From a virus, in IMG/VR virus record IMGVR_UViG_3300047319_000152, positions 1-32,260 of that record: a stretch of 32,260 nucleotides of DNA. One strand, given 5' to 3'. Below, in pieces: positions 5,726-32,260 of this stretch. The translations under genes were made by a program, and so were the position numbers. Within the stretch, counting starts at the first letter, position 1; each line of letters starts with the position of its first letter. The notes beneath the pieces were generated by a model, which had not been told where the DNA came from, did no database searches, and worked only from the letters and a program-made list of their open reading frames with translations.

Positions 5726-6907
5726 TTACGCGCCGAGAACGCGCGTTGCGAGGTTTCCGTTCAGCGTCAGGACTCCCCAAAGGGCGTCCAGGGAGACGAA
5801 CATTTTGCTGTTGTTCCCGTCGTAGAAGAGGCGGGCACGAACCGACAGCCCCGTGATCGGGTCCTGAGCGACGAAGATTTCCGCTCCGCGACCGTTGCCC
5901 ATCATGGACAGTGGCGCCATCGCCAAGGCGAAGGCGTTGCGATTGAATGCGAGTGTCTGGAACTTCGTGGCGCCCGAACCACCGGAAAGGGTGATGGTCA
6001 CAACCTGCGTGTTGATGACCGCGGATTCCAGCCCACCTCCCTGAACGCCAGGGTTGAAGCTGTCGATCGCGAGAGTGCCTGCACCCGAGCCGTCCAGTGT
6101 GACACCAGCCGTGAGAACGTACTGCTGAGTGTGACCCGTGATCACCACGACATCGCCCGCCGTGAGCACTGCCGCAGCAGCAAACCCGGTCACGAGAATT
6201 GACTTGGTTCCTGCCACGTAGCCAGGACCGTTGTTGATGGAACCGGCGAGGTCGGCGACCGTGGCCGAGGTCTTGCTCGCAACGTTCTGGTTGGCGAAGA
6301 ACTCGATACCATAACGAGTTCCCAGGGAACCCGTGATCTGCGTCTCGGCACCGAGAGGGCCGGAACCCTGGAACTGCGAGAAGGCCGTAAGGCCGAGCAG
6401 CTCAGCTTCGCGCTTGCCGTCCACCATGAAGTGGAGGTCGTTCATCGGGACCGCGTTGTCGAAGAGCTTCTGACGTGCGGTCAAGATGTCGGCAACCGTG
6501 GAAGTCGAGGTCCACGTATTGCTGATCCACGGAACCTGAGACCACAGCGCGCAAAGCGACTGGTCGATGGCGTCGGCCAGAGCATATGCGGCAGGGCGGA
6601 TGTGTTCCGCCACGATGCGCTCACCCGTGTAGGTGAGTTCCTGGTCAGTGAGGCCGAACTTGACCTCTTTCCACTTGTTGAGCAGAACCGACGCGCTACC
6701 GGCCGTCAAGTCCTGAGCCGTGGTCGGCGCGTTGAGCGCCGTGAAAACCGAAGGCCGACGAATGGTGATGGTATCGCCGGGTTCACGTCCCTTGTCCTGG
6801 TCGAGTTTGCGGTAAACTCGATTGGCCATCCCCAACGCCTTTTCGAGCGCGATCAGCGCCTCGGAAGCGTAGAAAATGGGATTGTATGCCGAGAGAGTGT
6901 TGCTCAC
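5726..6907 (-). CDS. Major capsid protein, P22 coat-like
   Basis: 393 residues. The start is a GTG at 6907, chosen because AGGAGG lies 8 bases upstream. The start MSNTLSAYNPIFYASEALIA and the following DKGREPGDTITIRRPSVFTA, then KEVKFGLTDQELTYTGERIV, match the N-terminal pattern of P22 gene 5-like coat proteins. A Gly/Thr-rich beta domain around residues 215-315 (VLTAGDVVVITG) corresponds to the inserted domain of that family. It sits directly after a scaffold gene. It would form the icosahedral shell. The family call is moderate and the coat role is firm from context. Confidence 0.8.
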   Translation of the reverse strand: MSNTLSAYNPIFYASEALIALEKALGMANRVYRKLDQDKGREPGDTITIRRPSVFTALNAPTTAQDLTAGSASVLLNKWKEVKFGLTDQELTYTGERIVAEHIRPAAYALADAIDQSLCALWSQVPWISNTWTSTSTVADILTARQKLFDNAVPMNDLHFMVDGKREAELLGLTAFSQFQGSGPLGAETQITGSLGTRYGIEFFANQNVASKTSATVADLAGSINNGPGYVAGTKSILVTGFAAAAVLTAGDVVVITGHTQQYVLTAGVTLDGSGAGTLAIDSFNPGVQGGGLESAVINTQVVTITLSGGSGATKFQTLAFNRNAFALAMAPLSMMGNGRGAEIFVAQDPITGLSVRARLFYDGNNSKMFVSLDALWGVLTLNGNLATRVLGA

Positions 6908-22089: not shown

Positions 22090-23726
22090 TCTTCCCTCAA
22101 TGCGGATACCCAAGCGGAGGTAGTCCACTTGGCAATGTCATCCTTGTTCTTCACAGCTTTGAGCACCACATGGTCTATCGTCTTCTGACCATCAGGCCCG
22201 ATAGCCATGCAATCCCACTGTGACACAGGGTATGTCTGACCGGGGCGATGAACACGGTCGATAGACTGAAGCCACAGGAACAAAGAGTAATTGAAGCTGA
22301 GATAGAAGACATCGTGCGCCGCAGTCAGGTTTATCCCAGTCGCGCCAGTTTGCGTGATACCGAGAACAACGACAGGACCCTCGGGCGCCGTGTTAGGATG
22401 AAGCAGGCTTAATGATCGCTGTCTGTCATCCGCCTTCTGCCCACCGATGATAGAACCTACCTGAACGTGAGGAAACCTGGCTTCGATGGCGCGCACTGAT
22501 CGCTGAAGTTCGACACGAAATCGGCACCAAACCATCAGCTTAAAGTTGGGTTCGTTTTCGAGACGTTCACCAATCCAGTCGAGAAGTGTTTCCAGTTTTT
22601 CGGAGCCAATTTCCCGCGTGGGGCCGTCCAAACCGGCCGGCAGGGGTGAAGGGTCGGCCGGGTTCCCGTTTGGCCTCCCAGGGCCGTTTACCGACGCCAG
22701 GACGGGCACCCACGGCGGCCGGCTAGCGTCAGTTTCGGTCGGTCCGGTCGGGGTCGGCTCTGGCAAGTCAACGTCCTCAATTCCACCAAGAAACCCGCTC
22801 GTAATTTGTGCGAGGCGCATGGCCTTGACGGCAGCTTGAGATGAGATTGCTACAGTCTGCGTATCCAGCCACGCTAGCATGTCATCGCGCATGTCTTTGT
22901 AGATCTTCCACGTTGGAGGAGTCAACGTTGTCTGCACAATCACCGGATCTAGCTTCGGTGGAAGGTCGAGACAGTCCATCTTCAGCCGTCTTAGGCAGTA
23001 TGGGGCGATGCGACGTTGCAAGTCTTCAACGTCTCGCCAACCGACAATCTGCTTTGCCTTGAACCCACCCAAGATCCCATATCGCGAACGGAAGTAGAAC
23101 CAGTTCTTCTGGTCTATGATCTTCGGGTCGAGTATGTACATCTGGGCAAACAGATCACCAGGGTTGTTAGCGATAGGTGTACCGTTAAGGATTATAACGC
23201 GCTTACAGAGCCGCCTCAGTTTCAGGCAAGCCTTGAATTGCTGAGTCGTTGGGTTCTTAATCGCTGTTGATTCGTCCAACACGAGCATGGTCTTAGGGCC
23301 AGCAAACTGGAGCAAGTATTCCAGCCGCTCGTGCTTACGAATGAAATCGTAGTTCGTCACGATCCAATCAAGGCGTCGGTCAGCCTTCGGCCCTCGCCCC
23401 CAGGATCGAGTTTTCTGACGATATTCGGTCCAAGCAACTGGGAGATCTTCCCAAGAATGCTTTTCCAGTTCTCCAAAGTCGGGATCGACCCAGACTGGTC
23501 GAACGGTGTTAGGAGTGATGACAATTACAAGGTCAATTTCTCCTATTTCAAATAGGATTTGTGCTGCATCAATGACTTGCTTTGTTTTGCCCGCTCCCAT
23601 TTCGTCGAACAAAGCAAAGCATCCACCGTGAATGCGGCCGACGCTGGGCTCGTTCCACATAACGAGTTTGTCAACGCCGACCCTCTGGTGGTCGAACGGC
23701 GGGATTCGTGAACGTGACAGATCCAT
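22086..23726 (-). CDS. SNF2-type DEAD/DEAH-like helicase
   Basis: 546 residues. Motif I at 41-49 (DEMGAGKTK), motif II DEST at 151-154, motif III NGTP at 181-184, and in the second RecA domain GATGINLT and SIDRVHRPGQ (motifs V and VI) as in SNF2 and phage-type helicases. Between the two domains a Pro/Gly-rich insert of about 60 residues (from about 312 to 370) has higher GC than the surroundings and is probably disordered. It likely translocates on duplex DNA during replication or repair. Confidence 0.88.
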   Translation of the reverse strand: MDLSRSRIPPFDHQRVGVDKLVMWNEPSVGRIHGGCFALFDEMGAGKTKQVIDAAQILFEIGEIDLVIVITPNTVRPVWVDPDFGELEKHSWEDLPVAWTEYRQKTRSWGRGPKADRRLDWIVTNYDFIRKHERLEYLLQFAGPKTMLVLDESTAIKNPTTQQFKACLKLRRLCKRVIILNGTPIANNPGDLFAQMYILDPKIIDQKNWFYFRSRYGILGGFKAKQIVGWRDVEDLQRRIAPYCLRRLKMDCLDLPPKLDPVIVQTTLTPPTWKIYKDMRDDMLAWLDTQTVAISSQAAVKAMRLAQITSGFLGGIEDVDLPEPTPTGPTETDASRPPWVPVLASVNGPGRPNGNPADPSPLPAGLDGPTREIGSEKLETLLDWIGERLENEPNFKLMVWCRFRVELQRSVRAIEARFPHVQVGSIIGGQKADDRQRSLSLLHPNTAPEGPVVVLGITQTGATGINLTAAHDVFYLSFNYSLFLWLQSIDRVHRPGQTYPVSQWDCMAIGPDGQKTIDHVVLKAVKNKDDIAKWTTSAWVSALREE

Positions 23727-23727
23727 A

Positions 23728-23970
23728 TTACTTTAACTTTCTCGCATTCGCTGCTTTCAGTTCAAGGGATTTGTCGACTCGAACCTTCTCCGCCCGTGGT
23801 CCCTTTTCACAGATATCTGATATGAACTCAACAGCCATTCCTTCACGCATGATGTCGAAGGCAAAAGTAGGGATGACTTCTCGTGCGTGAAAGAAGTAGG
23901 CGACTCCATTGTCGCCTCGAATGAACCCGAAACCACGGTTCAATACGAGTTTGAAGATAACTCCCTTCAT
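23728..23970 (-). CDS. Cold-shock domain protein
   Basis: 80 residues from an ATG at 23970 that overlaps the previous stop. It has the OB-fold signatures: RGFGFIRGD (RNP1-like) and VAYFFHAREV (RNP2-like), followed by FISDICEKGPRAEKVRV, the usual end of the fold, and a basic tail. It binds single-stranded nucleic acids and may help phage transcription or replication. It is translated directly before the SNF2 helicase. Confidence 0.85.
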   Translation of the reverse strand: MKGVIFKLVLNRGFGFIRGDNGVAYFFHAREVIPTFAFDIMREGMAVEFISDICEKGPRAEKVRVDKSLELKAANARKLK

Positions 23971-24143
23971 TTATGGTTCCAGATCCAGGCTCCGACAAAC
24001 ACTATCAGCGCAAGTAGAACAGGAATCCAGAGAGGTGTCATCACGTACCACCAGGACCAGGAGATTACCTTGCAGAGTTTGAGTGTAACGAATACGACCA
24101 GCAAGAGTTCAAGAAAGGTGATTCCACCTTTGGATTCGGTCAT
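23967..24143 (-). CDS. Two-helix small membrane protein
   Basis: 58 residues from an ATG at 24143, found by reading the gap. Segments FLELLLVVFVTLKLCKVI and TPLWIPVLLALIVFVGAWIW span the membrane, separated by SWSWWYVM. The pattern with ITFLELL, VISWSWWYV and PLWIP matches small proteins often annotated as transmembrane Fragile-X-F type. They are common in phages and bacteria, with unknown role. It overlaps the cold-shock gene by 4 bases. Confidence 0.7.
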   Translation of the reverse strand: MTESKGGITFLELLLVVFVTLKLCKVISWSWWYVMTPLWIPVLLALIVFVGAWIWNHK

Positions 24144-24144
24144 G

Positions 24145-24540
24145 TCACTTCTCGAGTCTGCTGACCCTGCGCTGGAGATAGAACAGGGCCTTCTTGAGTT
24201 CCTGAATCACAGGCTGGGCGTCTTTCAGATTTGTGATCTTGCCGTCTTTGAATTCGAGACGCCAAATGTAGCGCGTCAGGTTGTAGATGTAGGCGTCTCC
24301 GTCCCAACCCTTTGCCTCGGCGACCTTGATGTGCTCGAACTTGTCGTTCTTTCCGCCGTAGTGCGACGGGTGATTGACGGAGGCAGAAACCACCCGCTTA
24401 TCAACTTCATCGAGCATCTCTTTTACGACGGTATTCCTGACTTCTTCAGGGTCACCGATAATTTCGACATGCTCGTCGAAACTCTTCCCGTTGAGAACTT
24501 CCGAAAACTTACGGCCAAGGTGCTTCTTTGTCTTTCTCAT
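24145..24540 (-). CDS. DUF3310-like protein
   Basis: 131 residues from an ATG at 24540 with AAGGAGAAAG upstream. The core is VNHPSHYGG at 55-63, followed by EHIKVAEAKGWDG, AYIYNLTRYIWRLEFKDG and a C-terminal LKKALFYLQRRV helix: the DUF3310 pattern. Such proteins are often labelled nucleotide kinase, but no P-loop is visible and the label is unproved. The N-terminal 50 residues are basic and helical and may be an extra regulatory part. It lies behind the NDK gene. Confidence 0.78.
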   Translation of the reverse strand: MRKTKKHLGRKFSEVLNGKSFDEHVEIIGDPEEVRNTVVKEMLDEVDKRVVSASVNHPSHYGGKNDKFEHIKVAEAKGWDGDAYIYNLTRYIWRLEFKDGKITNLKDAQPVIQELKKALFYLQRRVSRLEK

Positions 24541-24557
24541 ACTTTCTCCTTAATGGA

Positions 24558-25115
24558 TTACTTCCTGACCAACTCTCCTGCGACGAAGTGTAGACACCCA
24601 CATTGAGCACATCGTTCCGTGCGGGTGTTTTCGATTCCTTCTTGCAACTCATTCGTCAGTAAGTGAAAATGGTTGCAAACGCACCGTGATACGTCTCCCA
24701 GTTTGACAGGCTGCCCGAAGAGAACGTTGTATTCGTAAGCATAGCTCTCCAGACTGTCAGAACCGTGGACGAGGTTCTCCATTGGACGGGCATCCTTCAA
24801 CATGAAGTCCCCGCGGATGGTCCCTTCAGCACGAGTGTTGAAGGAACCCATCTTATCCCGCCACGTCATGATAGCGTCCGTTCCTGACAAGACGAGACCG
24901 AAGCTATCTCCTGCAAGCATGAACGTGCAAAGATCGCGGTAATACGGCTTTCCGAAGTGCTGCCGAGAATAGAACGCTTTGGCGTTCCATCCGCTGCTGT
25001 GAAGCATCTTCATTGCGACAATGCCGAGTCCCGTTTCTTCAACCCTGGAGATGATTAAGCCAACCAATCTCCGTTGAACTGCGTCAGGCTTGATGAGTGC
25101 GATTGTGTAGCTCAT
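24558..25115 (-). CDS. ndk: Nucleoside diphosphate kinase with Cys-rich tail
   Basis: 185 residues from the ATG at 25115 (GGGAGACAAA upstream; the longer start adds eight weak codons). The NDK core shows MSYTIALIKPDAVQRR, LGIVAMKML, GTIRGDF and NLVHGSDS, with H117 as the phosphorylated residue. Residues 140-185 add a Cys-rich module (CVCNHFHLL, then CAQCGC) absent from usual NDKs, which end near 140. It would convert dNDPs, possibly including modified ones, to dNTPs. Location beside thymidylate synthase and a kinase fits that role. Confidence 0.88.
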   Translation of the reverse strand: MSYTIALIKPDAVQRRLVGLIISRVEETGLGIVAMKMLHSSGWNAKAFYSRQHFGKPYYRDLCTFMLAGDSFGLVLSGTDAIMTWRDKMGSFNTRAEGTIRGDFMLKDARPMENLVHGSDSLESYAYEYNVLFGQPVKLGDVSRCVCNHFHLLTNELQEGIENTRTERCAQCGCLHFVAGELVRK

Positions 25116-25378
25116 GATTTTGTCTCCCACATAGTGCATCCAAAATCGGAACGTGTTTCCAATTCACCAGGAGATTCACAAGCGGCCAGTGTACCGTCTT
25201 TGATATCTTGCCAATGAATTTTCTTACAATTTCCTATTGGGAATCCTTTCTGATTTTGAATCGTGCCTTTACTCCAATACTTACAAGATCCACATGCAGG
25301 CATTGTCTGTCGTGAAATTCGTTCCATTGCTTCCGGGCCGATTGTAGCAAGGTTTAGATCCGAAAGGAGGATAGCCAT
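25112..25378 (-). CDS. Cys-rich small protein
   Basis: 88 residues from the ATG at 25378, which overlaps the stop of the thymidylate synthase gene by one base and has GGAGAG upstream. Longer starts would lie inside that gene. Five Cys: CGSCKYW, GNCKK, AACESPG and FGCTMWE, a pattern common in small phage proteins that bind metal. Coupled to both neighbours by overlaps. Function unknown. Confidence 0.65.
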   Translation of the reverse strand: MAILLSDLNLATIGPEAMERISRQTMPACGSCKYWSKGTIQNQKGFPIGNCKKIHWQDIKDGTLAACESPGELETRSDFGCTMWETKS

Positions 25379-26373
25379 TAGTGGTCTCTCCAGGTCCGAT
25401 AACGTCGTTCGAGCCATTGTGTTGCCCCAACGATCCAATCGTTGGTGACGTGAACCGACTTAGCGAGGGCGTTCAACGAAAATTCAAACCGATACGGTGG
25501 TGGATAAAGACGGTAACGTTGATGGGCCAACATGACTCGCCACACGGTGTCCATCCAAGGGGTATTGAATAGGTCTTCCCGTTGATCCTGTTCGTCCACG
25601 TTTTTCAGCAGGTCTAAGAGGCACCTGTCAGTGTTCTCGAAAGGAATTGGAATGGTGTCCAGATTGTCGTAGGGTTGAATGTCGAGCGACGTATCGTACT
25701 TCAACTTGTCGAGAGTCGAGATGTAGGCGTGCCAATTCACACTGACTTGAGAATACGTCCCCATCGGCACACCAATTCTCACCGCCATGTATTCCAGCAG
25801 AAAAGAGAAGTGAACCGCGTTCGCCCCGTAGCACCCAAGAACGATATCGTTGCTACGGCAAAAGACCACGAGATTTAGCTTACCGTCGTGACCGATTTGA
25901 AACGTAGCGGTATCGTTGCAAGGTATGTCACGAGAGTTAATGTCGAGGTCGTGAATGGCACTCCACATTTGGAGAACACAGCGTCGGTCTTCCGGATTCT
26001 TTTTGAGACGTTCGACGATCACGTCGAGCTGGTCGGTTCCGAACATCTTTCGCCAACGATACCCGTAGGCTCCGTGAAGAGTGGAAGTGTCGTCGCTGAA
26101 CTGGGAGAAGTTCTTGACGTAACGAAGAAGAGGATCAAGATCTCGTCTACCTGCCAGCATCCACATGGATTCGTATAGGTGAAAGAACGGATTTGCGTCT
26201 CGTTTTTCACCAAACAGCACACGCTCCCAGGGCCGGAGATAAACGGTAGTGACGGGATATGGAGAGACAAGTACTGGACCGTTACGGCTCCCACGTTCGA
26301 CTCCAATTTTGTTGATGACATTGTACGCGTGCTGAGCAGCGTCGTTTACGTTTCTGGCTTCGATGACGTACAT
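25378..26373 (-). CDS. Thymidylate synthase-fold enzyme, candidate dUMP hydroxymethylase
   Basis: 331 residues from the ATG at 26373 (TAATG overlap, GGAGG 12 bases upstream). Thymidylate synthase features: HLYESMWMLAGRRDLDPLL, YGYRWR at 103-108, catalytic C152 in RDIPCNDT, and CRSNDIVLGCYGANAVHFSF where N185 occupies the pyrimidine-recognition position, which favours dUMP over dCMP. Phage homologues with this GAN-V-H variant instead of P-F-N occur in modification clusters, so it may add a hydroxymethyl instead of a methyl group. The two activities cannot be separated by reading. Confidence 0.85.
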   Translation of the reverse strand: MYVIEARNVNDAAQHAYNVINKIGVERGSRNGPVLVSPYPVTTVYLRPWERVLFGEKRDANPFFHLYESMWMLAGRRDLDPLLRYVKNFSQFSDDTSTLHGAYGYRWRKMFGTDQLDVIVERLKKNPEDRRCVLQMWSAIHDLDINSRDIPCNDTATFQIGHDGKLNLVVFCRSNDIVLGCYGANAVHFSFLLEYMAVRIGVPMGTYSQVSVNWHAYISTLDKLKYDTSLDIQPYDNLDTIPIPFENTDRCLLDLLKNVDEQDQREDLFNTPWMDTVWRVMLAHQRYRLYPPPYRFEFSLNALAKSVHVTNDWIVGATQWLERRYRTWRDH

Positions 26374-27224
26374 TAGTACGAGTACCTCCGCTTTTGTGAC
26401 TGACCGTGGTTTGAGCGCTCCCATTTGTCGTATTCGCAGAGCCAGTGCTCAACTTCACGCATCTCCCAAGAACGCCACTCCTTAGGCCAATACGCAGAAT
26501 CTCCAGCCCTTGCAAGGAGTTCCTGCATCGACGGTTGAACATCGTCTTGGTCGATTTTGATTGTGTTGTCGTCGTGCGTGAGCCAGCTCAGCCCACGTTG
26601 GGCACCAGGACCCGGATTGGCCCACGTCATGATGTCAGGTGCCTTGTCCAGAAGGGGAGTCCAGCGAAGGTCGGAGACCAGCTCGTAGGCCATGAATCCG
26701 CCCATGTAGGGTAGGGTCTTGAGATGCTTCCACCAACCCTTGAGTCCTTCAAATCCGTAAATGGCAGTTCCCCAATTTCCGAGAAAGCCTTCCAGCATTG
26801 GGAGTGAAGTGTCAATGCACCACAAGATGCCATCCAGCTTGTTGCACCCTGCGGGAGAACTGACCATAAACGCACCAGTGACGAGTGGGCTCCACCCTTC
26901 GAGTCGCCGTCTCGCTTCTTCGGTGTTCCATTCACCACGAAGAAGATCAAGAATCATATCGTTGGTTTCAATTCGGTTGAACCAACGATAAATGAACGCC
27001 GACCGAAGCTGATGAAACAGTGGAGCCATCTTTAGTGGGTTGCGAACGTTCTCGCGAAAGTGAACGGTGGTCTTGTCGTCTTCGCGATGAACGTTGCAGA
27101 ATCGCCACGTCTTGAAGTGAGGGTCGAATGTCCACGGCGGAGGTTCTCCAGCTTCCCGTCGAAGTTTGATGTTGTAACGTTCCCGAGCCGTAGCGAAGAA
27201 CTGATTGACGTTTTCTTCTAACAT
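26373..27224 (-). CDS. aGPT-Pplase / 5-hmdU DNA kinase helical-domain protein
   Basis: 283 residues from an ATG at 27224. It bears the features of the thymine-hypermodification family: REAGEPPPWTFDPHFKTWRF, then NVHREDDKTTVHFREN, later GFMAYELVSDLRWTPLL, DIMTWANPGPGAQRGL. These match proteins annotated as alpha-glutamyl/putrescinyl-thymine pyrophosphorylase or HMUDK helical domain, a DNA-glycosylase-like helical fold acting on phosphorylated 5-hydroxymethyl-dU in DNA. It follows the P-loop kinase with a 7-base overlap and precedes the thymidylate synthase homologue, a conserved trio. Confidence 0.85.
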   Translation of the reverse strand: MLEENVNQFFATARERYNIKLRREAGEPPPWTFDPHFKTWRFCNVHREDDKTTVHFRENVRNPLKMAPLFHQLRSAFIYRWFNRIETNDMILDLLRGEWNTEEARRRLEGWSPLVTGAFMVSSPAGCNKLDGILWCIDTSLPMLEGFLGNWGTAIYGFEGLKGWWKHLKTLPYMGGFMAYELVSDLRWTPLLDKAPDIMTWANPGPGAQRGLSWLTHDDNTIKIDQDDVQPSMQELLARAGDSAYWPKEWRSWEMREVEHWLCEYDKWERSNHGQSQKRRYSY

Positions 27225-27838
27225 CCGAAGATCCCCGCAATTCGTTTGATGGCGTCGGCCACGTCCATGTGCTCGACGTGGACACCGTTAGACTTCAGTT
27301 TGGCGAGGGCGTTCTTTACGGAGCGTTCTTCACGGATCAGGTTGCTCGGGTCGAGAACTAGCTCTTTCTTGTACCCTTGTCCCTCGGCGCGGCGAATTTT
27401 CACCCGTTCGATGCAAATCTCGACAGGGGTCGTAAGCCCAATGACGAGAACGTCCAGCTTGGCTCTGTGAAGATCCAGGAGCTTTCCTGTGCAGTGCTGC
27501 GCGACGATCCCTTCGAAGAGAACGTGGTAACCTTCCCGCGCACGTTCCTCGATGATCGAAAAGTAGCCGGGGGTGATGACGGTCATGCCGTCATCATCCA
27601 TGATGTGTGAAGGGTTCTTGATGAGGTCGCATCCGCCGGTCTGGCAAGTGTCGAGGTAAGGCCCCATCAACCAAAGGTTGAAAGTGTCGTCATCGTGCAG
27701 GCCGCACAAATGACCGATGGGGGTTCGTCGGGCGCTGTTGGGGAGTTCGACATTCTTGATGGCTTTGTAACGCTTCATCAATTCGCGCACGACTGTTGTC
27801 TTACCCGATCCGTTCGTTCCTCTTACGTTGACTATCAT
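27218..27838 (-). CDS. P-loop kinase, candidate 5-hydroxymethyl-dU DNA kinase
   Basis: 206 residues from an ATG at 27838 with GAGGAAAG upstream. Walker A is GTNGSGKTT (7-15). The central GPYLDTCQTGGCDLIKNP resembles the Y-x3-C-x-x-G-G-C-D-x-I motif of phage 5-hmdU DNA kinases. LFEGIVA near 107 is the second acidic strand, and TTPVEICIERVKIRR is the lid region. It would phosphorylate the 5-hydroxymethyl group of uracil in DNA, creating the substrate for the pyrophosphorylase-like neighbour. Other nucleotide kinases are possible but the neighbourhood argues for this. Confidence 0.78.
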   Translation of the reverse strand: MIVNVRGTNGSGKTTVVRELMKRYKAIKNVELPNSARRTPIGHLCGLHDDDTFNLWLMGPYLDTCQTGGCDLIKNPSHIMDDDGMTVITPGYFSIIEERAREGYHVLFEGIVAQHCTGKLLDLHRAKLDVLVIGLTTPVEICIERVKIRRAEGQGYKKELVLDPSNLIREERSVKNALAKLKSNGVHVEHMDVADAIKRIAGIFGC

Positions 27839-27989
27839 TCTTTCTTTCCTCTCGTTGACGGGCTAACCTAACTAGAATCTTAGTCAGGGCATAGGCACCT
27901 TCAGAGTTACCGGCTCGGATTTCCAGCAAAACAGAGTGTCTCACTGCTGCCAACCCACCACGTCTCGGTAACTGACCAAAGGATTTCAC
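27801..27989 (-). CDS. Small basic protein ahead of the modification kinase
   Basis: 62 residues from a GTG at 27989. It begins MKSFGQLPRRGGLAAVRH, then LTKILVRLARQREERK, and is helical and basic. It overlaps the kinase start by 38 bases, unusual here. No ribosome binding site precedes the GTG, and the promoter at 28027-27999 would begin RNA about 3 bases before it. It may be leaderless or start internally. Function unknown. Confidence 0.45.
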   Translation of the reverse strand: MKSFGQLPRRGGLAAVRHSVLLEIRAGNSEGAYALTKILVRLARQREERKNDSQRKRNERIG

Positions 27990-27998
27990 AAGTACCCA

Positions 27999-28027
27999 AC
28001 CCTACCATATTTAAACTCAAATGTCAA
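27999..28027 (-). promoter_or_regulatory. Sigma70-type promoter of the modification kinase operon
   Basis: TTGACA (28027-28022), 17-base spacer and a weak TAGGGT (28004-27999) on the minus strand. The -35 overlaps the stop codon of the last glycosyltransferase gene. The spacer contains AGTTTAAAT four bases after the -35, the motif also present in the promoters at 19154 and 21719. The poor -10 suggests that an activator may be required. Confidence 0.55.
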
Positions 28028-28758
28028 GTGATTCTTTTAAATTTCATCGTAACTACTGAACCATCTCCACCGTGTTTAAGGTCCATACGGGTGACCATCT
28101 CCGGGAACAATTCGACTATTCTCAGCAACGCTTCGTTACTGGCTTTAACACTGTTTTCGATGACGGTAGGAACATTTTTAATGAGACTGTACTTTGCGTA
28201 GATATGCTTCACTACGCCCATCAACTTCTTGTCATGCCTACGGTGAGCGCAAACCCTGTACTCGATTTCACGCTTCTGTAGAGTAGTGTCCACGAACAAT
28301 TCAGGATGGTTTGTGCTTCTCGCGAAATTCACAAATCCATAAGTGTTCCTATCACTGTGTTCATAGTCTAAACACATATCGGAATGCTTAAGATTAAGCC
28401 CAACAAGAGTAACCCCTAATGTCTCCGCACAAGTCAGACATTCTTGGAGAATTTCATCCAAGGTAGCAGGGCTCTCGTCATAGTGTCGAAAGATGTTAGG
28501 TGGACAGTCATCATCTAAACGTAAGAACCAATCGTGCCCATGGGAGTAAGCCCAACTGTAGCATTCAGCGATTTGCGCACACATTCCAGGGACACCGGGG
28601 AGAACGTAATACTCCGAGCGAGAATAGTACGATCGGTGATCCGTGTACACAGAAGGGTCGGCGATGATATATGTTTTGACTTCTCTTGGAACCTTGTAAT
28701 TTTTCAGAGTGTCTAGTGGTGGCTTCCGTTTAGTGGGGATGCAGATACACACGCTCAA
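28024..28758 (-). CDS. GT-A-like glycosyltransferase, paralogue 1 (divergent)
   Basis: 244 residues from a TTG at 28758, with GGAGATACC upstream and a coupled overlap with the previous stop. N-terminal CICIPTKRKPPLDTL, then IIADPSVYTDHRSYY, GVPGMCAQIAECY and RLDDD at 80-84, the DxD-type nucleotide-sugar/metal site. YRVCAHRRHD is retained, but the C-terminal GRVNFIG and SQEE motifs of the sister genes are missing and the H-SGG segment is replaced. It is the most diverged copy and may have changed acceptor. A role in DNA-base glycosylation is inferred from the cluster. Confidence 0.65.
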   Translation of the reverse strand: MSVCICIPTKRKPPLDTLKNYKVPREVKTYIIADPSVYTDHRSYYSRSEYYVLPGVPGMCAQIAECYSWAYSHGHDWFLRLDDDCPPNIFRHYDESPATLDEILQECLTCAETLGVTLVGLNLKHSDMCLDYEHSDRNTYGFVNFARSTNHPELFVDTTLQKREIEYRVCAHRRHDKKLMGVVKHIYAKYSLIKNVPTVIENSVKASNEALLRIVELFPEMVTRMDLKHGGDGSVVTMKFKRIT

Positions 28759-29525
28759 GGAAGGTATCTCCGCTTTCTTATGGTGAGTCCACGCTCATCC
28801 AGCAATGTCTCCGGGCCGTAGGTCAGCATGTCAGGGAAGCATCTCGAAACCGTGTCCTCAGACGCAGTGAGTTCTTCCTGACTACAGAGGATTGACGTGT
28901 TCTTCCCGTAGCACTTACTCCAAGAAACCCCGATGTGGGTTACTCTGCCGTTCTTCTGGTTGAGAGCACGCTTACGGTGGAAGCAGGTTCGATAAGAATC
29001 TTCATTTCTTTGTAGTGTCTTGAGGACCTTATCGTCAAGCATGCCGGGGATGACCACGGCTAAATTTGCGCCACCCGAGATGTGGGTAAAGGTTTCTCTG
29101 CACTTACCACTCCCAGAAGATAAGGCGGCAGCTCCTATTTTATTCTGAAATCCTACCAAGGTTACTGGTAGAGTTTTAAGACAAAAATTCGCACAATGGA
29201 TAATAATATCTAATGACGGTTCATAGATTGCATCAGTCATTAGATCACACGCGCGAAACATCCCCGGAACATGATCGTCATCCATGCGAAAGAATTTATC
29301 GAAACCCAATTCATGAGCCGTGACGTAGCAAAGGTGGGATTGAGCCCCCATCCCAACTGCGCCAGGAATTACCTTTGCGAGAGAAAAGCGGTAGTACTCT
29401 TGATGTTCCTCATAAACTGAAGGATCAGCAAGAATCACTATTGGATATTTGACTGGTTGATAAGTTTCCAACGTTTTAACTGGAGGCTTTCTTTTCGTTG
29501 GAATAATGATTAGCAGATTTTCCAC
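28755..29525 (-). CDS. GT-A-like glycosyltransferase, paralogue 2
   Basis: 256 residues from a GTG at 29525 with AGGAGA upstream. It carries LIIIPTKRKPPVKTL, ILADPSVYEEHQEYY, GAVGMGAQSHLCY, RMDDDHVPGMF (80-90), HISGGANLAVV, YRTCFHRKR, GRVTHIGVSW and GKNTSILCSQEE. The DDD triplet at 82-84 should bind a metal and a nucleotide sugar. All motifs of the family are intact. It probably acts in the cytoplasm on 5-hydroxymethylpyrimidine in DNA, as TET/JBP-associated glycosyltransferases are thought to, but the acceptor is not shown. Confidence 0.68.
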   Translation of the reverse strand: MENLLIIIPTKRKPPVKTLETYQPVKYPIVILADPSVYEEHQEYYRFSLAKVIPGAVGMGAQSHLCYVTAHELGFDKFFRMDDDHVPGMFRACDLMTDAIYEPSLDIIIHCANFCLKTLPVTLVGFQNKIGAAALSSGSGKCRETFTHISGGANLAVVIPGMLDDKVLKTLQRNEDSYRTCFHRKRALNQKNGRVTHIGVSWSKCYGKNTSILCSQEELTASEDTVSRCFPDMLTYGPETLLDERGLTIRKRRYLP

Positions 29526-29533
29526 AACGTCTC

Positions 29534-30337
29534 CTAGTTTGGTTTGTACCTTAGATACTTCTTCTTGTAATTCCGGTACTTACCTCCATTGTCATAGTCT
29601 CCAAGTCTGCCGAATTCTATCAGATGTGAAAAGTGTTCTTCAATCAAACGCTTGTCACTCTCAATGTCTTCCTGATTAGAATCAATAATCGACTTATTGC
29701 CCTTGTTCCCTTGGCTCCATTCCATGCAACCAGAGAAGTTGAATCCGATAAAATTCACTCTCCCATTCAACCCCTTGCCACCACGATCAATGTCATATTG
29801 ACGATGGGAACAAGTTCTCCAAGTATCCTCACTATGTCTCAGAAGTGGGTGAACAAAGACCGTCGGGTCAAGAGAACTTTTAACCAGACTTACCCCACCG
29901 GAGATATGAGAATACGCTCGACCGTAAGGCTGATCATTGTTGTCCAACCAATACCGATTAGACGTCATTTGAAGCCCTACGAGAGTAATATCGAAATGCT
30001 CCATACAGTCCTGCATCTCGTTGATGAGTTCTTCAAGACCGACACTATACCCATCTACGTGAATGAACGAGTCGGGTTGAAGGTCGTCATCAAGGCGCAG
30101 GAAAGTGTCGTATCCGTGCAATGCCGCCAAGCGATAACATTCTGACGCCTGACGAGCCATACCTCGAACCCCAAGAACAACCATGATTTTAGGGTCGTTC
30201 TCGTATTTTTCTTTGTGTTCCTGATAGACTTCGGGGTCACAAATGAGCAGGACTTTCCTGTCATCTGGAATACTGAAACTTTCCAGAGTTAGAACTGGGG
30301 TTTTTCGTTTGGTTGGGATACAGATACAAGTGTTCAT
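29534..30337 (-). CDS. GT-A-like glycosyltransferase, paralogue 3
   Basis: 267 residues. The ATG at 30337 is preferred over a GTG at 30343 that overlaps the upstream stop. Motifs: CICIPTKRKTPVLTL, LICDPEVYQEHKEKY, GVRGMARQASECY, RLDDDLQPDSF, HISGGVSLVKSS, WRTCSHRQYD, GRVNFIGFNFSGC. In place of GKNTSI it has GNKSI with an inserted Gln/Gly-rich loop, so acceptor contacts may differ. Conserved core suggests an active enzyme. Target is inferred only. Confidence 0.68.
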   Translation of the reverse strand: MNTCICIPTKRKTPVLTLESFSIPDDRKVLLICDPEVYQEHKEKYENDPKIMVVLGVRGMARQASECYRLAALHGYDTFLRLDDDLQPDSFIHVDGYSVGLEELINEMQDCMEHFDITLVGLQMTSNRYWLDNNDQPYGRAYSHISGGVSLVKSSLDPTVFVHPLLRHSEDTWRTCSHRQYDIDRGGKGLNGRVNFIGFNFSGCMEWSQGNKGNKSIIDSNQEDIESDKRLIEEHFSHLIEFGRLGDYDNGGKYRNYKKKYLRYKPN

Positions 30338-30339
30338 AA

Positions 30340-31131
30340 TCACCAAGACTTGAGATAACGTTTCTTTCGTTTCTCGAAACCCAGAACGTTCACGTACTCA
30401 CTACCATCAATGAAGGTTATCATGTCAGGGAACTCTTGTGAAAGGAAATTTTCGGATCTGTAAATCCCTTCCTGCGTAGATACGATCGACGTGTTCTTTC
30501 CGAAGCATCCGGCCCACGTAGCCCCGATAAAGTTAACTCTCCCGTTTTCCCCTCGCCCACCAAGAACGTCGCGCTCGTACCTTCTGTGAGCACATGTTCT
30601 GTAGAGGTCTTCGTGAACCCCTGCAAGATCAGGGTCAAGGCTCATGAAAGTTTCCGGGGTCTTGGTTGAGATAGCCATGACGGCGGCACCGGCGAGATGA
30701 CCGTGAGTTTTGGAAAATGAAGGTCTCAGTTCCCTAGGATTCTTGGTATTCATGAACCCAACGTAAGAGACATTCAGTTCAAGCAGACATCGGTGTGCTT
30801 GTTCGATGATGTCATTGATGTCGACATCTAATTGCTTCTCCAGTTGGTAAAAGACACCAGGGATGTAGTCGTCATCCATTCTAAAGAAATGCTGATACCC
30901 GCGGTCAGCGGCTTCGGAGTAGCATCTCATGGTCTGCCGTTTGACACCGTGTTCTCCACGTATTACGTCTATCTTGGACCCATCATAGAATTGTCTGTGA
31001 ATCTCGAAAACGTCTGGGTCCGAGATAAGGAGAATAGGGTAACGTAGCCGTTCAAGGTGAAGCTCAAGACTTGTTAACGGAGGAAGTCTCTTCGAAGGTA
31101 TACAGACCAGAATCTCACTTTTATCTCTCAT
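30340..31131 (-). CDS. GT-A-like glycosyltransferase, paralogue 4
   Basis: 263 residues from an ATG at 31131 overlapping the upstream stop by 4 bases. ILVCIPSKRLPPLTSL, LISDPDVFEIHRQFY, HGVKRQTMRCY, RMDDDYIPGVF with DDD at 86-88, HLAGAAVMAIS, YRTCAHRRYERD, GRVNFIGATWAGC and GKNTSIVSTQE are all present. The A-G-A instead of S-G-G in the pocket segment is a natural variant among the copies. Function as above; the order in a possible sugar chain is unknown. Confidence 0.68.
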   Translation of the reverse strand: MRDKSEILVCIPSKRLPPLTSLELHLERLRYPILLISDPDVFEIHRQFYDGSKIDVIRGEHGVKRQTMRCYSEAADRGYQHFFRMDDDYIPGVFYQLEKQLDVDINDIIEQAHRCLLELNVSYVGFMNTKNPRELRPSFSKTHGHLAGAAVMAISTKTPETFMSLDPDLAGVHEDLYRTCAHRRYERDVLGGRGENGRVNFIGATWAGCFGKNTSIVSTQEGIYRSENFLSQEFPDMITFIDGSEYVNVLGFEKRKKRYLKSW

Positions 31132-31910
31132 TTGAGATACTTAACCTTTGGAATGTTGTGAGGAACGGCGTTAGTCCAAGTTGATGGGTCAGTGAACATG
31201 ACGAGATCGGAGAAGGCCGTTAGAATGATGTTCTGGGACTTGTCCATATCTTCCTGTGATATGTCGCAAGATGTCATGTTCCCCCAGAGCCGCTTGTAGT
31301 CGAGCCCGATGAAATTGACCTTGCCGTTTCTCCCTGCCCCTCCGTTAGCAAGGTCGTAACGTCGGTGAGCGCAGACTCTGTAGACCCACTCCATGCGCTT
31401 TAGTTCAGGATCCATGAACGGTGTGGGGCTCGCTATTGACAGATTGCAACAGCCAGGAAGATCACCGTATGTCTTCGAGTACCCTGCTCTCATCCAGTGG
31501 GCATTCCCATTGGAATTGATGCCGGCATACGACAATCCTGTATGCTCAAGACATTCGATCAACTTGTCAATAACGTAAAGAAGAGATGGACGACGAACCT
31601 CGAAGTCCGCATCTTTGTCAGTGTCCTCCGGGTCTTCCTGAGCACGTTCAACAAAAACCCCAGGTTCGAGGTCATCGTCCAGCCTGACGAAGTGATCATA
31701 GCCATGAGCCGCAGCTTGTGTATAACACTCTGCAACTTGGGCTCCAATCCCCTTCTTCCCCATTTCGACGAGGTTATCTGAATATGCAACGTGCTCGTCG
31801 TATACTTCAGGATCAGCAATTACGATGACCGGAAAGCCTCCTGTCGGATGGTTCATCAACGTTCGAAGAGGAGGGTGGCGTTTGGTGGGAATACAAATGC
31901 AGATGTTCAC
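31128..31910 (-). CDS. GT-A-like glycosyltransferase, paralogue 5 (first in the operon)
   Basis: 260 residues from a GTG at 31910 that overlaps the upstream stop. ICICIPTKRHPPLRTL, VIADPEVYDEHVAYS, GIGAQVAECY, RLDDDLEPGVF (DDD at 78-80), DLPGCCNLSIA, YRVCAHRRYD, GKVNFIGLDY. After the DDD site it has an acidic insert (EDPEDTDKDADFEVRR) not found in the others. The GKNTS motif is changed to GNMTS. It is probably the first translated copy, and likely a functional glycosyltransferase of unproved target. Confidence 0.66.
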   Translation of the reverse strand: MNICICIPTKRHPPLRTLMNHPTGGFPVIVIADPEVYDEHVAYSDNLVEMGKKGIGAQVAECYTQAAAHGYDHFVRLDDDLEPGVFVERAQEDPEDTDKDADFEVRRPSLLYVIDKLIECLEHTGLSYAGINSNGNAHWMRAGYSKTYGDLPGCCNLSIASPTPFMDPELKRMEWVYRVCAHRRYDLANGGAGRNGKVNFIGLDYKRLWGNMTSCDISQEDMDKSQNIILTAFSDLVMFTDPSTWTNAVPHNIPKVKYLK

Positions 31911-32077
31911 CGCGTCCAGCCGGTCTTCTTTTCCTCCTCTGTTTTAGGAGATTCGTCTGGGTAGAGCTGGACGGCGCCGCAATCCATACACCCTGCCGGA
32001 GCGCACTGCTGTTCTCCCACACCAATGTTAACGGTAGGGTAATCGACGTTTTCAGATTGACAGTAGGGACACTTCAT
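31907..32077 (-). CDS. Small zinc-ribbon protein upstream of the glycosyltransferases
   Basis: 56 residues from an ATG at 32077 with AAGGAG upstream. CPYC at the N-terminus and CMDC near residue 30 form the two zinc knuckles, followed by an acidic, Lys/Glu-rich tail ending KKTGWTR. The stop overlaps the GTG of the first glycosyltransferase (GTGA), so their translation is coupled. Function unknown; it could be a metal-binding accessory protein of the modification cluster. Confidence 0.68.
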   Translation of the reverse strand: MKCPYCQSENVDYPTVNIGVGEQQCAPAGCMDCGAVQLYPDESPKTEEEKKTGWTR

Positions 32078-32086
32078 GATTTCTCC

Positions 32087-32260
32087 TTAGTCACCATACA
32101 TCTCTTCGAATTCGATTTCTTCTTGCGTCTTGGTCGAGTTACCGCAAACTTGTAGAGTAAAATTGATTGCGTCAAAATCCCTCAGGTATTTCAACCCAAT
32201 AGAAAGAGGTCCATCTCTATGAATATATTCTGATCCATCAATAAAGGGGGGAGTATGAAG
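32087..32260 (-). CDS. C-terminal end of an unknown protein (runs off the window)
   Basis: 57 residues to a stop at 32087, frame open to the window edge. Visible sequence includes PFIDGSEYIHRDGPLSIG, LKYLRDFDAINFTLQVCG and an acidic end (TQEEIEFEEMYGD). No family is recognised from this fragment. It is followed after 9 bases by the zinc-ribbon gene and may belong to the same operon. Confidence 0.6.
   Translation of the reverse strand, partial: LHTPPFIDGSEYIHRDGPLSIGLKYLRDFDAINFTLQVCGNSTKTQEEIEFEEMYGD

Follow-up and report, generated by a model that had tools for sequence, protein, structure and literature searches.

Several phage systems that decorate thymine or add sugar to DNA have been described, each separately: amino-acid-derived hypermodified thymidine in the Pseudomonas phages M6 and PaMx11, sugar-bearing thymine in the Bacillus phage SP-15, and TAGT glycosyltransferases that act on glucosylated cytosine. 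M6 carries 5-(2-aminoethyl)dU (dU, deoxyuridine), and activation by a kinase of 5-hydroxymethyldeoxyuridine (5-hmdU) in DNA is described for M6, ViI, and phi W-14 (PMC6449724). SP-15 bears glucosyl and phosphoglucuronolactone groups on dihydroxypentyl-uracil (PMC5977210), while the TAGT of T6, placed in the GT-A class beside GT2, adds the second glucose in T2 and T6, and solitary TAGTs were counted in 288 of 753 genomes (PMC13216743). Here we examine IMG/VR record IMGVR_UViG_3300047319_000152 (32,260 bases; hereafter the window), in which a run of minus-strand genes from 31910 down to 25378 places five glycosyltransferase (GT) genes next to the core of a thymidine hypermodification operon (Table 1). 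On this gene content, an unusual sugar coating of the phage DNA is probable.

An earlier note, made from the sequence of the window alone, had placed here a thymidylate synthase (TS) homologue, an HMUDK helical protein (HMUDK_hel), a P-loop kinase with a GGCD motif, five GT-like genes, and a nucleoside diphosphate kinase (NDK), and we found all of them where it located them, on the minus strand. It had also described the trio of TS homologue, helical protein, and kinase as overlapping or nearly abutting; the overlaps are there (1 nucleotide [nt] between the HMUDK_hel and TS genes, 7 nt between the kinase and HMUDK_hel genes), with the correction that the TS homologue most likely starts at 26373 rather than at 26424, because phrog_5131 aligns from residue 18. 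The GT genes are packed just as tightly, with overlaps of 4 nt (GT1/GT2), 7 nt (GT2/GT3), and 4 nt (GT4/GT5) and a gap of 8 nt between GT3 and GT4. All genes are codirectional, and the sole larger gap is the 185 nt between GT5 and the kinase gene. An ordered cluster of these gene families is far beyond chance.

The kinase exceeds the curated PF18748 cut-off of 27 bits (Table 1) and aligns with the kinases of PaMx11, M6, and phage Simon, and our own kinase profile (A8), which includes the window protein, matches the whole window record at E=8e-72. We dropped PF18748 as the sole kinase test after it missed kinases in records G002, G003, and G007 that A8 detects, A8 itself including the G002 and G003 proteins. 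The 5-hmdU DNA kinase is labelled “terminase small subunit” in Ab18 and M6 (L003 6429-6998 and L004 6426-6989), as is phrog_800, the best PHROG of the window kinase, and this label is probably a misannotation.

The match of HMUDK_hel to PF18723 covers positions 3-280 of the 281 in the profile. We found relatives in 89 phage records, the best of them (42-45% identity) in phage Simon and PaMx11-like Pseudomonas phages, with 44% identity to PaMx11_50 and 31.5% to the M6 protein; among viral contigs, the relatives taken were the best 80 of at least 517 confirmed. The predicted structure (pLDDT 93.9) most often matched DNA glycosylases, although weakly for a helical protein: Foldseek gave no match under 0.001, and the best Z in the VIA list was 9.6, which for a helical protein is too low to be trusted; second in that list stood a queuine-salvage enzyme. 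A search of PDB sequences with HMUDK_hel returned no match, and a comparison with the profiles of ADDT, the amino acid:DNA transferase, gave a weak one (E=0.003, probability 10%, 58 columns).

For the TS homologue (PF00303 E=1e-22, phrog_5131 E=2e-103), the best PDB match was a CMP 5-hydroxymethylase (E=9e-16), followed by thymidylate synthases, and NCBIfam TS models matched solely below their cut-offs. It keeps the Cys and an Asn that aligns with the “PFN” Asn of thymidylate synthases, whereas the CMP 5-hydroxymethylase has Asp there, a position that we take to sort uracil from cytosine enzymes in this family. The protein is likely a dUMP hydroxymethylase. When we searched 14 control genomes, PF18748 and the ADDT family PF18724 each matched 0/14, TAGT matched 1/14, and phrog_5131 matched 9/14.

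The operon extends past the end of the window, which cuts it and so kept the genes farther upstream out of the earlier note. A GT search of viral contigs retrieved a second IMG/VR contig, IMGVR_UViG_3300046517_000320 (L007, also record G001; 35,578 bases), which is identical to the window across 9,913 bases (window 22348-32260), the overlap reaching the end of each contig; we treated the two as separate overlapping records. On L007, the strand that carries the GT genes holds, 5′ of GT1, a DNA polymerase A, a small endonuclease/helicase-like open reading frame (ORF), and an HD nucleotidase (phrog_318 E=1.5e-39). It also holds a class II glutamine amidotransferase that stands alone (GATase_6 E=9e-12), begins MCGVIGY, and had no match among PDB sequences, and an ADDT, which is absent from the window record and scores 52.6 bits against PF18724 (cut-off 26.2; E=7e-14). 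The remaining genes encode an amidoligase-like protein (L007:7438-8376), a low-molecular-weight (LMW) phosphatase (E=7e-12), and an unassigned 222-amino-acid protein. The amidoligase-like protein falls short of membership in Amidoligase_2 (PF12224), with 13.1 bits against a cut-off of 22 (E=0.09); among its homologues in other loci, those of L066 (30.1 bits) and L027 (25.3 bits) pass, those of L005 and L030 do not, and those of L037 and L038 gave no match.

By gene content and order, this is a thymidine hypermodification operon of the amino-acid-transfer type seen in M6 and PaMx11. PaMx11/Ab18 and M6, which are Pseudomonas phages of the Mesyanzhinovviridae, have the same block of ADDT, kinase, HMUDK_hel, TS homologue, HD protein, and DNA polymerase. 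Small ORFs aside, the order is ADDT, FAD enzyme, acetyltransferase, kinase, HMUDK_hel, TS, HD, polymerase in PaMx11/Ab18, and ADDT, PALP, “DNA repair photolyase,” kinase, HMUDK_hel, Nmad5, TS, HD, polymerase in M6. We take the M6 “photolyase” to be a radical SAM protein; both it and its homologue in L066 hold a CxxxCxxC motif. Where the slot between ADDT and kinase is filled in PaMx11 by the FAD enzyme and acetyltransferase and in M6 by PALP and the radical-SAM-like protein, it holds here the amidoligase, the phosphatase, the unassigned gene, and the five GTs. Local profiles, built from one seed each for the FAD, GNAT acetyltransferase, PALP, and radical SAM families, detected no homologue of any of the four in either the window or G001. 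The PaMx11 ADDT matches a solved structure named “Glycinyltransferase” (8z2m) over all 292 residues (E=4e-206), and an ADDT profile that includes the window-phage and PaMx11 proteins detects the same structure at E=2e-85.

The contents of this slot appear to set the final side chain. We rejected the trio of TS homologue, kinase, and helical protein as a guide to the chemistry by itself, since the side chain would be defined by ADDT and the slot genes, which lie outside the window. The pair of amidoligase and LMW phosphatase recurs in five further ADDT/FAD/kinase operons, those of phage Simon (PQ683277; L005, 7986-9399), L027, L030, L037, and L038 (records W01 and G008-G011). These five share ADDT, amidoligase, LMW phosphatase, kinase, HMUDK_hel, and TS with the present locus but differ in having the FAD gene and no GT of the window family; the pair occupies the slot of the PaMx11 acetyltransferase.

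As the amidoligase would do here, CmoX/CmoY of Synechococcus phage S-B43 turn a carboxylate on a base into an amide through an ATP-dependent ligase, there joining glycine to carboxymethyl-cytosine, although the base is cytosine, the ligase resembles asparagine synthetase, and the word “glycosyltransferase” is absent from that text (PMC12783734). Vibrio phage 2.275.O carries, among 7-deazaguanine genes, an amidoligase homologue, recognized by a local profile, and a GATase_6-like protein (L103 10035-11147 and 13681-14295), both under their cut-offs (21.9 bits against 22 and 19 bits against 27). This pair suggests amidation of a modified guanine, and it hints that the amidoligase has a role in DNA modification beyond the window operon.

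The five GTs share 29-39% pairwise identity and 38 invariant columns, among them the RxDDD motif that had led the earlier note to call them GT-A-like, a call that their modelled fold bears out. DDD is kept in all five and is invariant across 10 aligned sequences of the family. An AlphaFold model of GT3 from a 10-row alignment (pLDDT 89.4, pTM 0.88) matched GT-A enzymes in the PDB, namely TarS (E=2e-6), chondroitin polymerase, and TarP, and a second structure search gave ppGalNAc-T2 (Z 14.9, root mean square deviation 4.1 over 225 residues). On this model, the five are predicted to have a GT-A fold with a DDD metal motif. The fold does not point to an acceptor, because many other GT-A enzymes score Z 13-14. 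In our tree of the family, where four forks are open and GT5, L035, and L066 sit on long branches, all five window copies fall on the same side of a 98/97 branch, and they are likely an old expansion within the lineage.

Given that TAGT family members such as the T6 beta-glucosyl-HMC-alpha-glucosyltransferase also have a GT-A fold, a DDD motif, and a DNA-modification setting, we compared the window GTs with PF20691. As TAGTs the five genes were rejected: against a cut-off of 27.5 bits, the best score was 18.9 (19.0 in the whole-record search). T6 Ggt matches both phrog_842 (E=5e-78) and TAGT (E=1e-8), and GT3 matches phrog_842 at E=6e-11. Among predicted viral proteins, the model nearest to GT3 was an unspecified glycosyltransferase of Synechococcus phage S-CBWM1; of the top 20, seven were named as TAGT-domain proteins, one further model was the beta-glucosyl-HMC-alpha-glucosyltransferase of Klebsiella phage PKO111 (TM 0.61), and seven had no name. 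Taken together, the family is probably DNA-transferase-like and a distant relative of TAGT, although not a member by the curated cut-off. Sequence searches outside our viral contigs were negative: GT3, the L096 GT, and GT1 found no match in 50,697 phage records at E values of 1e-5, 0.1, or 1, the GT search of genome_contigs found no relative, and GT3 drew one irrelevant match from PDB sequences.

We then asked in which company this family occurs. A search of viral contigs with the GT profile (A3) found seven GT loci from six distinct viruses, which have no DNA-level match to each other; L098 and L099 are one virus, identical across 20,678 bases. Our local census of 91 sources is redundant in the same way, with the window and L007 overlapping and L002/L017, L028/L078, and L098/L099 identical where they overlap. 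In whole records, HMUDK_hel and phrog_5131 TS accompanied the GT family in 8/8 cases, the kinase (A8) in 6/8, and ADDT (profile A6) in 5/8, the window record being cut; counted by virus, kinase and ADDT were each present in 5/6. Both A8 and A6 were built with proteins from several of the GT-family records tested. The claim of the earlier note that the GTs belong to a 5-hmdU-type hypermodification operon is supported by these counts.

The linkage is also close, with the GT gene at most 3 kb from ADDT in five of the six viruses. The order in L066 is HMUDK_hel, kinase, radical-SAM-like, ADDT, PALP, GT, amidoligase, nucleotidase, TS, with ADDT, GT, and amidoligase inside 3.4 kb. In L035, an ADDT-like gene ends on the very base with which the GT start codon opens, some 8 kb from HMUDK_hel; the ADDT call there comes from A6, which includes that protein, plain Pfam having given no match. 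L096 has the same one-base overlap of ADDT stop and GT start. These overlaps, together with the 5/6 viruses that have kinase and ADDT, suggest a joint pathway. In L095, HMUDK_hel, kinase, and TS lie at the opposite end of the 161-kb record from the GT. The 68.7-kb record of L098 has HMUDK_hel, GT, a true TAGT (detected by hmmscan, missed by the whole-record search), and TS, with no kinase or ADDT found on the record.

Several of these loci hold further variations. Two differing 5-hmdU-kinase-like genes stand in tandem in one operon of L096 (10031-11154). L095 (5993-8677 and 8797-9798) has two ADDT-like genes split by an ORF that by eye resembles a GIY-YIG endonuclease, and then a Gfo/Idh/MocA oxidoreductase, possibly a sugar-modifying enzyme, before its GT.

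A second class of loci emerged when we examined 39 whole records, which we picked from loci already fetched and most of which are possibly fragments. The kinase was found in 20 and ADDT in 18, all 18 being among the 20 kinase records. Nine records (L015, L021, L026, L028, L033, L034, L036, L040, and L057; whole-record handles G015, G017, G037, G019, G022-G025, and G029), which share no DNA match over 500 bases, combine HMUDK_hel and TS with a TAGT above the cut-off, and none of the nine has kinase or ADDT. Kinase and ADDT together were thus present in 5/6 GT-family viruses and in 0/9 true-TAGT records (Fisher p=0.002). Because we chose the records ourselves, from possible fragments and by differing searches (the HMUDK_hel search for the TAGT records, the GT search for the GT viruses), this contrast is a pattern rather than a survey. 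The kinase-less class may glycosylate 5-hmdU directly, and it is a sign that HMUDK_hel does not depend on the kinase.

On balance, we favor reading the window locus as an amino-acid-transfer operon of the M6/PaMx11 type in which glycosylation is a tailoring step. That the five transferases glycosylate thymine derivatives in phage DNA seems to us likely; whether their acceptor is the side chain built by ADDT and the amidoligase, rather than bare 5-hmdU, we regard as an even question. The gene families, their order, and their linkage are read directly from the sequence, and from there we infer the order of steps, the acceptor, and the donor sugars. The TS homologue would make 5-hydroxymethyl-dUMP, which NDK and host kinases would raise to the triphosphate for incorporation of 5-hmdU into DNA, with the HD nucleotidase trimming the competing nucleotide pool. 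The 5-hmdU DNA kinase would then activate part of the bases, with the participation of HMUDK_hel and its base-flipping-glycosylase-like fold, and ADDT would displace the phosphate with an amino acid attached through its amine, in line with the name of the PaMx11 glycinyltransferase. The amidoligase would amidate or extend the free carboxylate with ammonia supplied by the class II amidotransferase, and the five GT-A enzymes would glycosylate the side chain, most likely with more than one sugar. The most far-reaching product, a DNA glycoconjugate in which five GT-A transferases in succession would build a short oligosaccharide on an amino-acid-bearing thymine with an amidated or extended carboxylate, is a tentative proposal that we consider rather unlikely. 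Such an amino-acid-linked glycan on a nucleobase would come from a GT family that stays below the TAGT cut-off and has so far been met solely in records with HMUDK_hel and a TS homologue.

A number of observations weigh against the reading that we favor. ADDT, the amidotransferase, and the amidoligase are located on the second, overlapping contig and not in the window, and the amidoligase call rests on the L066 homologue (38% identity, E=6e-7), its own Pfam match being weak. None of the five GTs reaches the TAGT cut-off, two have no TAGT match at all, and a direct hhalign comparison of the GT profile with T6 Ggt found no match (probability 0.3%). Matching 9/14 control genomes, that is, ordinary thymidylate synthases, makes phrog_5131 a weak TS test. 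Among about 30 scanned proteins of the window and L007, there was no sugar-nucleotide gene, and L007 carries, upstream of the polymerase and about 8.6 kb upstream of GT1, a SASA-type carbohydrate esterase (564-1412; E=9e-32) with tail-protein similarity. Finally, the GT family can work without amino-acid loading, because L098/L099 have it with no kinase or ADDT on the record.

This last point leads to an alternative in which two modifications run in parallel, with kinase, ADDT, and amidoligase working on a subset of 5-hmdU and the GTs acting directly on the remaining bare hydroxyls, as in base J synthesis and T4 cytosine glucosylation. What sets the five copies apart would then be their sugar, linkage, or sequence context. 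Besides L098/L099, where the GT family stands with HMUDK_hel, TAGT, and TS, the nine further HMUDK_hel and TAGT records make sugar on 5-hmdU without amino-acid chemistry plausible as a wider theme, and M6 substitutes about 30% of its thymidine (PMC11946847). However, kinase and ADDT are kept in 5/6 GT-family viruses and ADDT overlaps the GT in two, and we consider parallel modification unlikely. The acceptors of the GTs might instead be virion proteins or glycans of the host surface, the genes having come to their operon position by chance or for coexpression. Protein O-glycosyltransferases and wall teichoic acid transferases are among the PDB fold neighbors, jumbo cyanophages have paralogous GTs within clusters predicted to make surface polysaccharides (PMC7824862), and the esterase on the overlapping contig would fit such a role. 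Yet HMUDK_hel and the TS homologue are found in 8/8 GT-family records, the GT is close to ADDT in 5/6 viruses, and the viral models nearest to GT3 often are TAGT-domain proteins, all of which makes a surface role improbable in our view.

The GTs may also have multiplied in response to modification-dependent restriction or to defenses that use DNA glycosylases, the copies adding alternative sugars side by side and no single oligosaccharide. The five are old paralogues that have diverged while all keeping DDD, and T4 has two transferases that make stereoisomeric products and so help it against defense by a DNA glycosylase specific for one stereoisomer (PMC13216743). Nothing in our data separates this explanation, which is compatible with either acceptor, from stepwise addition, and we judge it somewhat unlikely.

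The earlier note had suggested that the combination may be a new DNA modification system. We would describe it as a tailoring variation on a known operon; “new system” is too strong given SP-15, where sugar is already placed on a hypermodified thymine side chain, although this likeness is drawn from the description of SP-15, which gives it a 10-gene carbohydrate cluster likened to teichoic or teichuronic acid synthesis (PMC5977210). In the literature that we searched, there was no description of ADDT/kinase operons with glycosyltransferases, and the main hypermodification papers lay beyond the reach of that search, so the combination has possibly been drawn there already. If our reading is correct, at least five distinct viruses extend the amino-acid-transfer route of thymidine hypermodification by a glycosylation step. 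Likely thymine glycosylation would then fall into two classes, HMUDK_hel with TAGT and no kinase versus HMUDK_hel with kinase, ADDT, and the window GT family. The GT family, amidoligase, and amidotransferase would be testable candidate DNA-modifying enzymes, with a bearing on which sugars block restriction and DNA-glycosylase defenses.

Table 1. Predicted genes of the hypermodification and glycosyltransferase cluster in the window.
Feature	Position	Strand	Description
GT1	31128..31910	-	260 aa, GTG start; GT-A-like; phrog_842 E=0.0018; TAGT PF20691 18.9 bits, under 27.5
GT2	30340..31131	-	263 aa; GT-A-like by paralogue alignment; no Pfam or PHROG match of its own
GT3	29534..30346	-	270 aa, TTG start; phrog_842 E=6e-11; TAGT 16.6 bits, under cut-off
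GT4	28755..29525	-	256 aa, GTG start; phrog_842 E=0.015; TAGT 15.2 bits, under cut-off
GT5	28024..28758	-	244 aa, TTG start; phrog_842 E=6.6e-5; no TAGT match; longest branch of the five
5-hmdU DNA kinase-like P-loop protein	27218..27838	-	206 aa, GGCD motif; PF18748 32.8 bits
HMUDK_hel protein, predicted HhH DNA-glycosylase-like fold	26373..27224	-	283 aa; PF18723 E=9e-37
TS homologue, likely dUMP hydroxymethylase	25378..26373	-	331 aa from ATG at 26373; PF00303, phrog_5131
Cys-rich small ORF between TS and NDK	25112..25438	-	108 aa; possibly not a gene; no Pfam match
NDK	24558..25139	-	PF00334 E=4e-35 over residues 12-142 of 193

Two minor observations concern other genes of the window. The NDK has a Cys-rich, zinc-ribbon-like extension of about 50 residues past its NDK domain, and the adjoining 108-aa ORF is likewise Cys-rich. 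The major capsid protein (window 5726-6907) is nearest to those of Dinoroseobacter R5C-type phages and Pseudanabaena phage Pan1 (41-44%), and no Pseudomonas phage was among the organism names displayed for its matches, two names being undisplayed. On these matches, the modification genes may have passed from one phage lineage to another.

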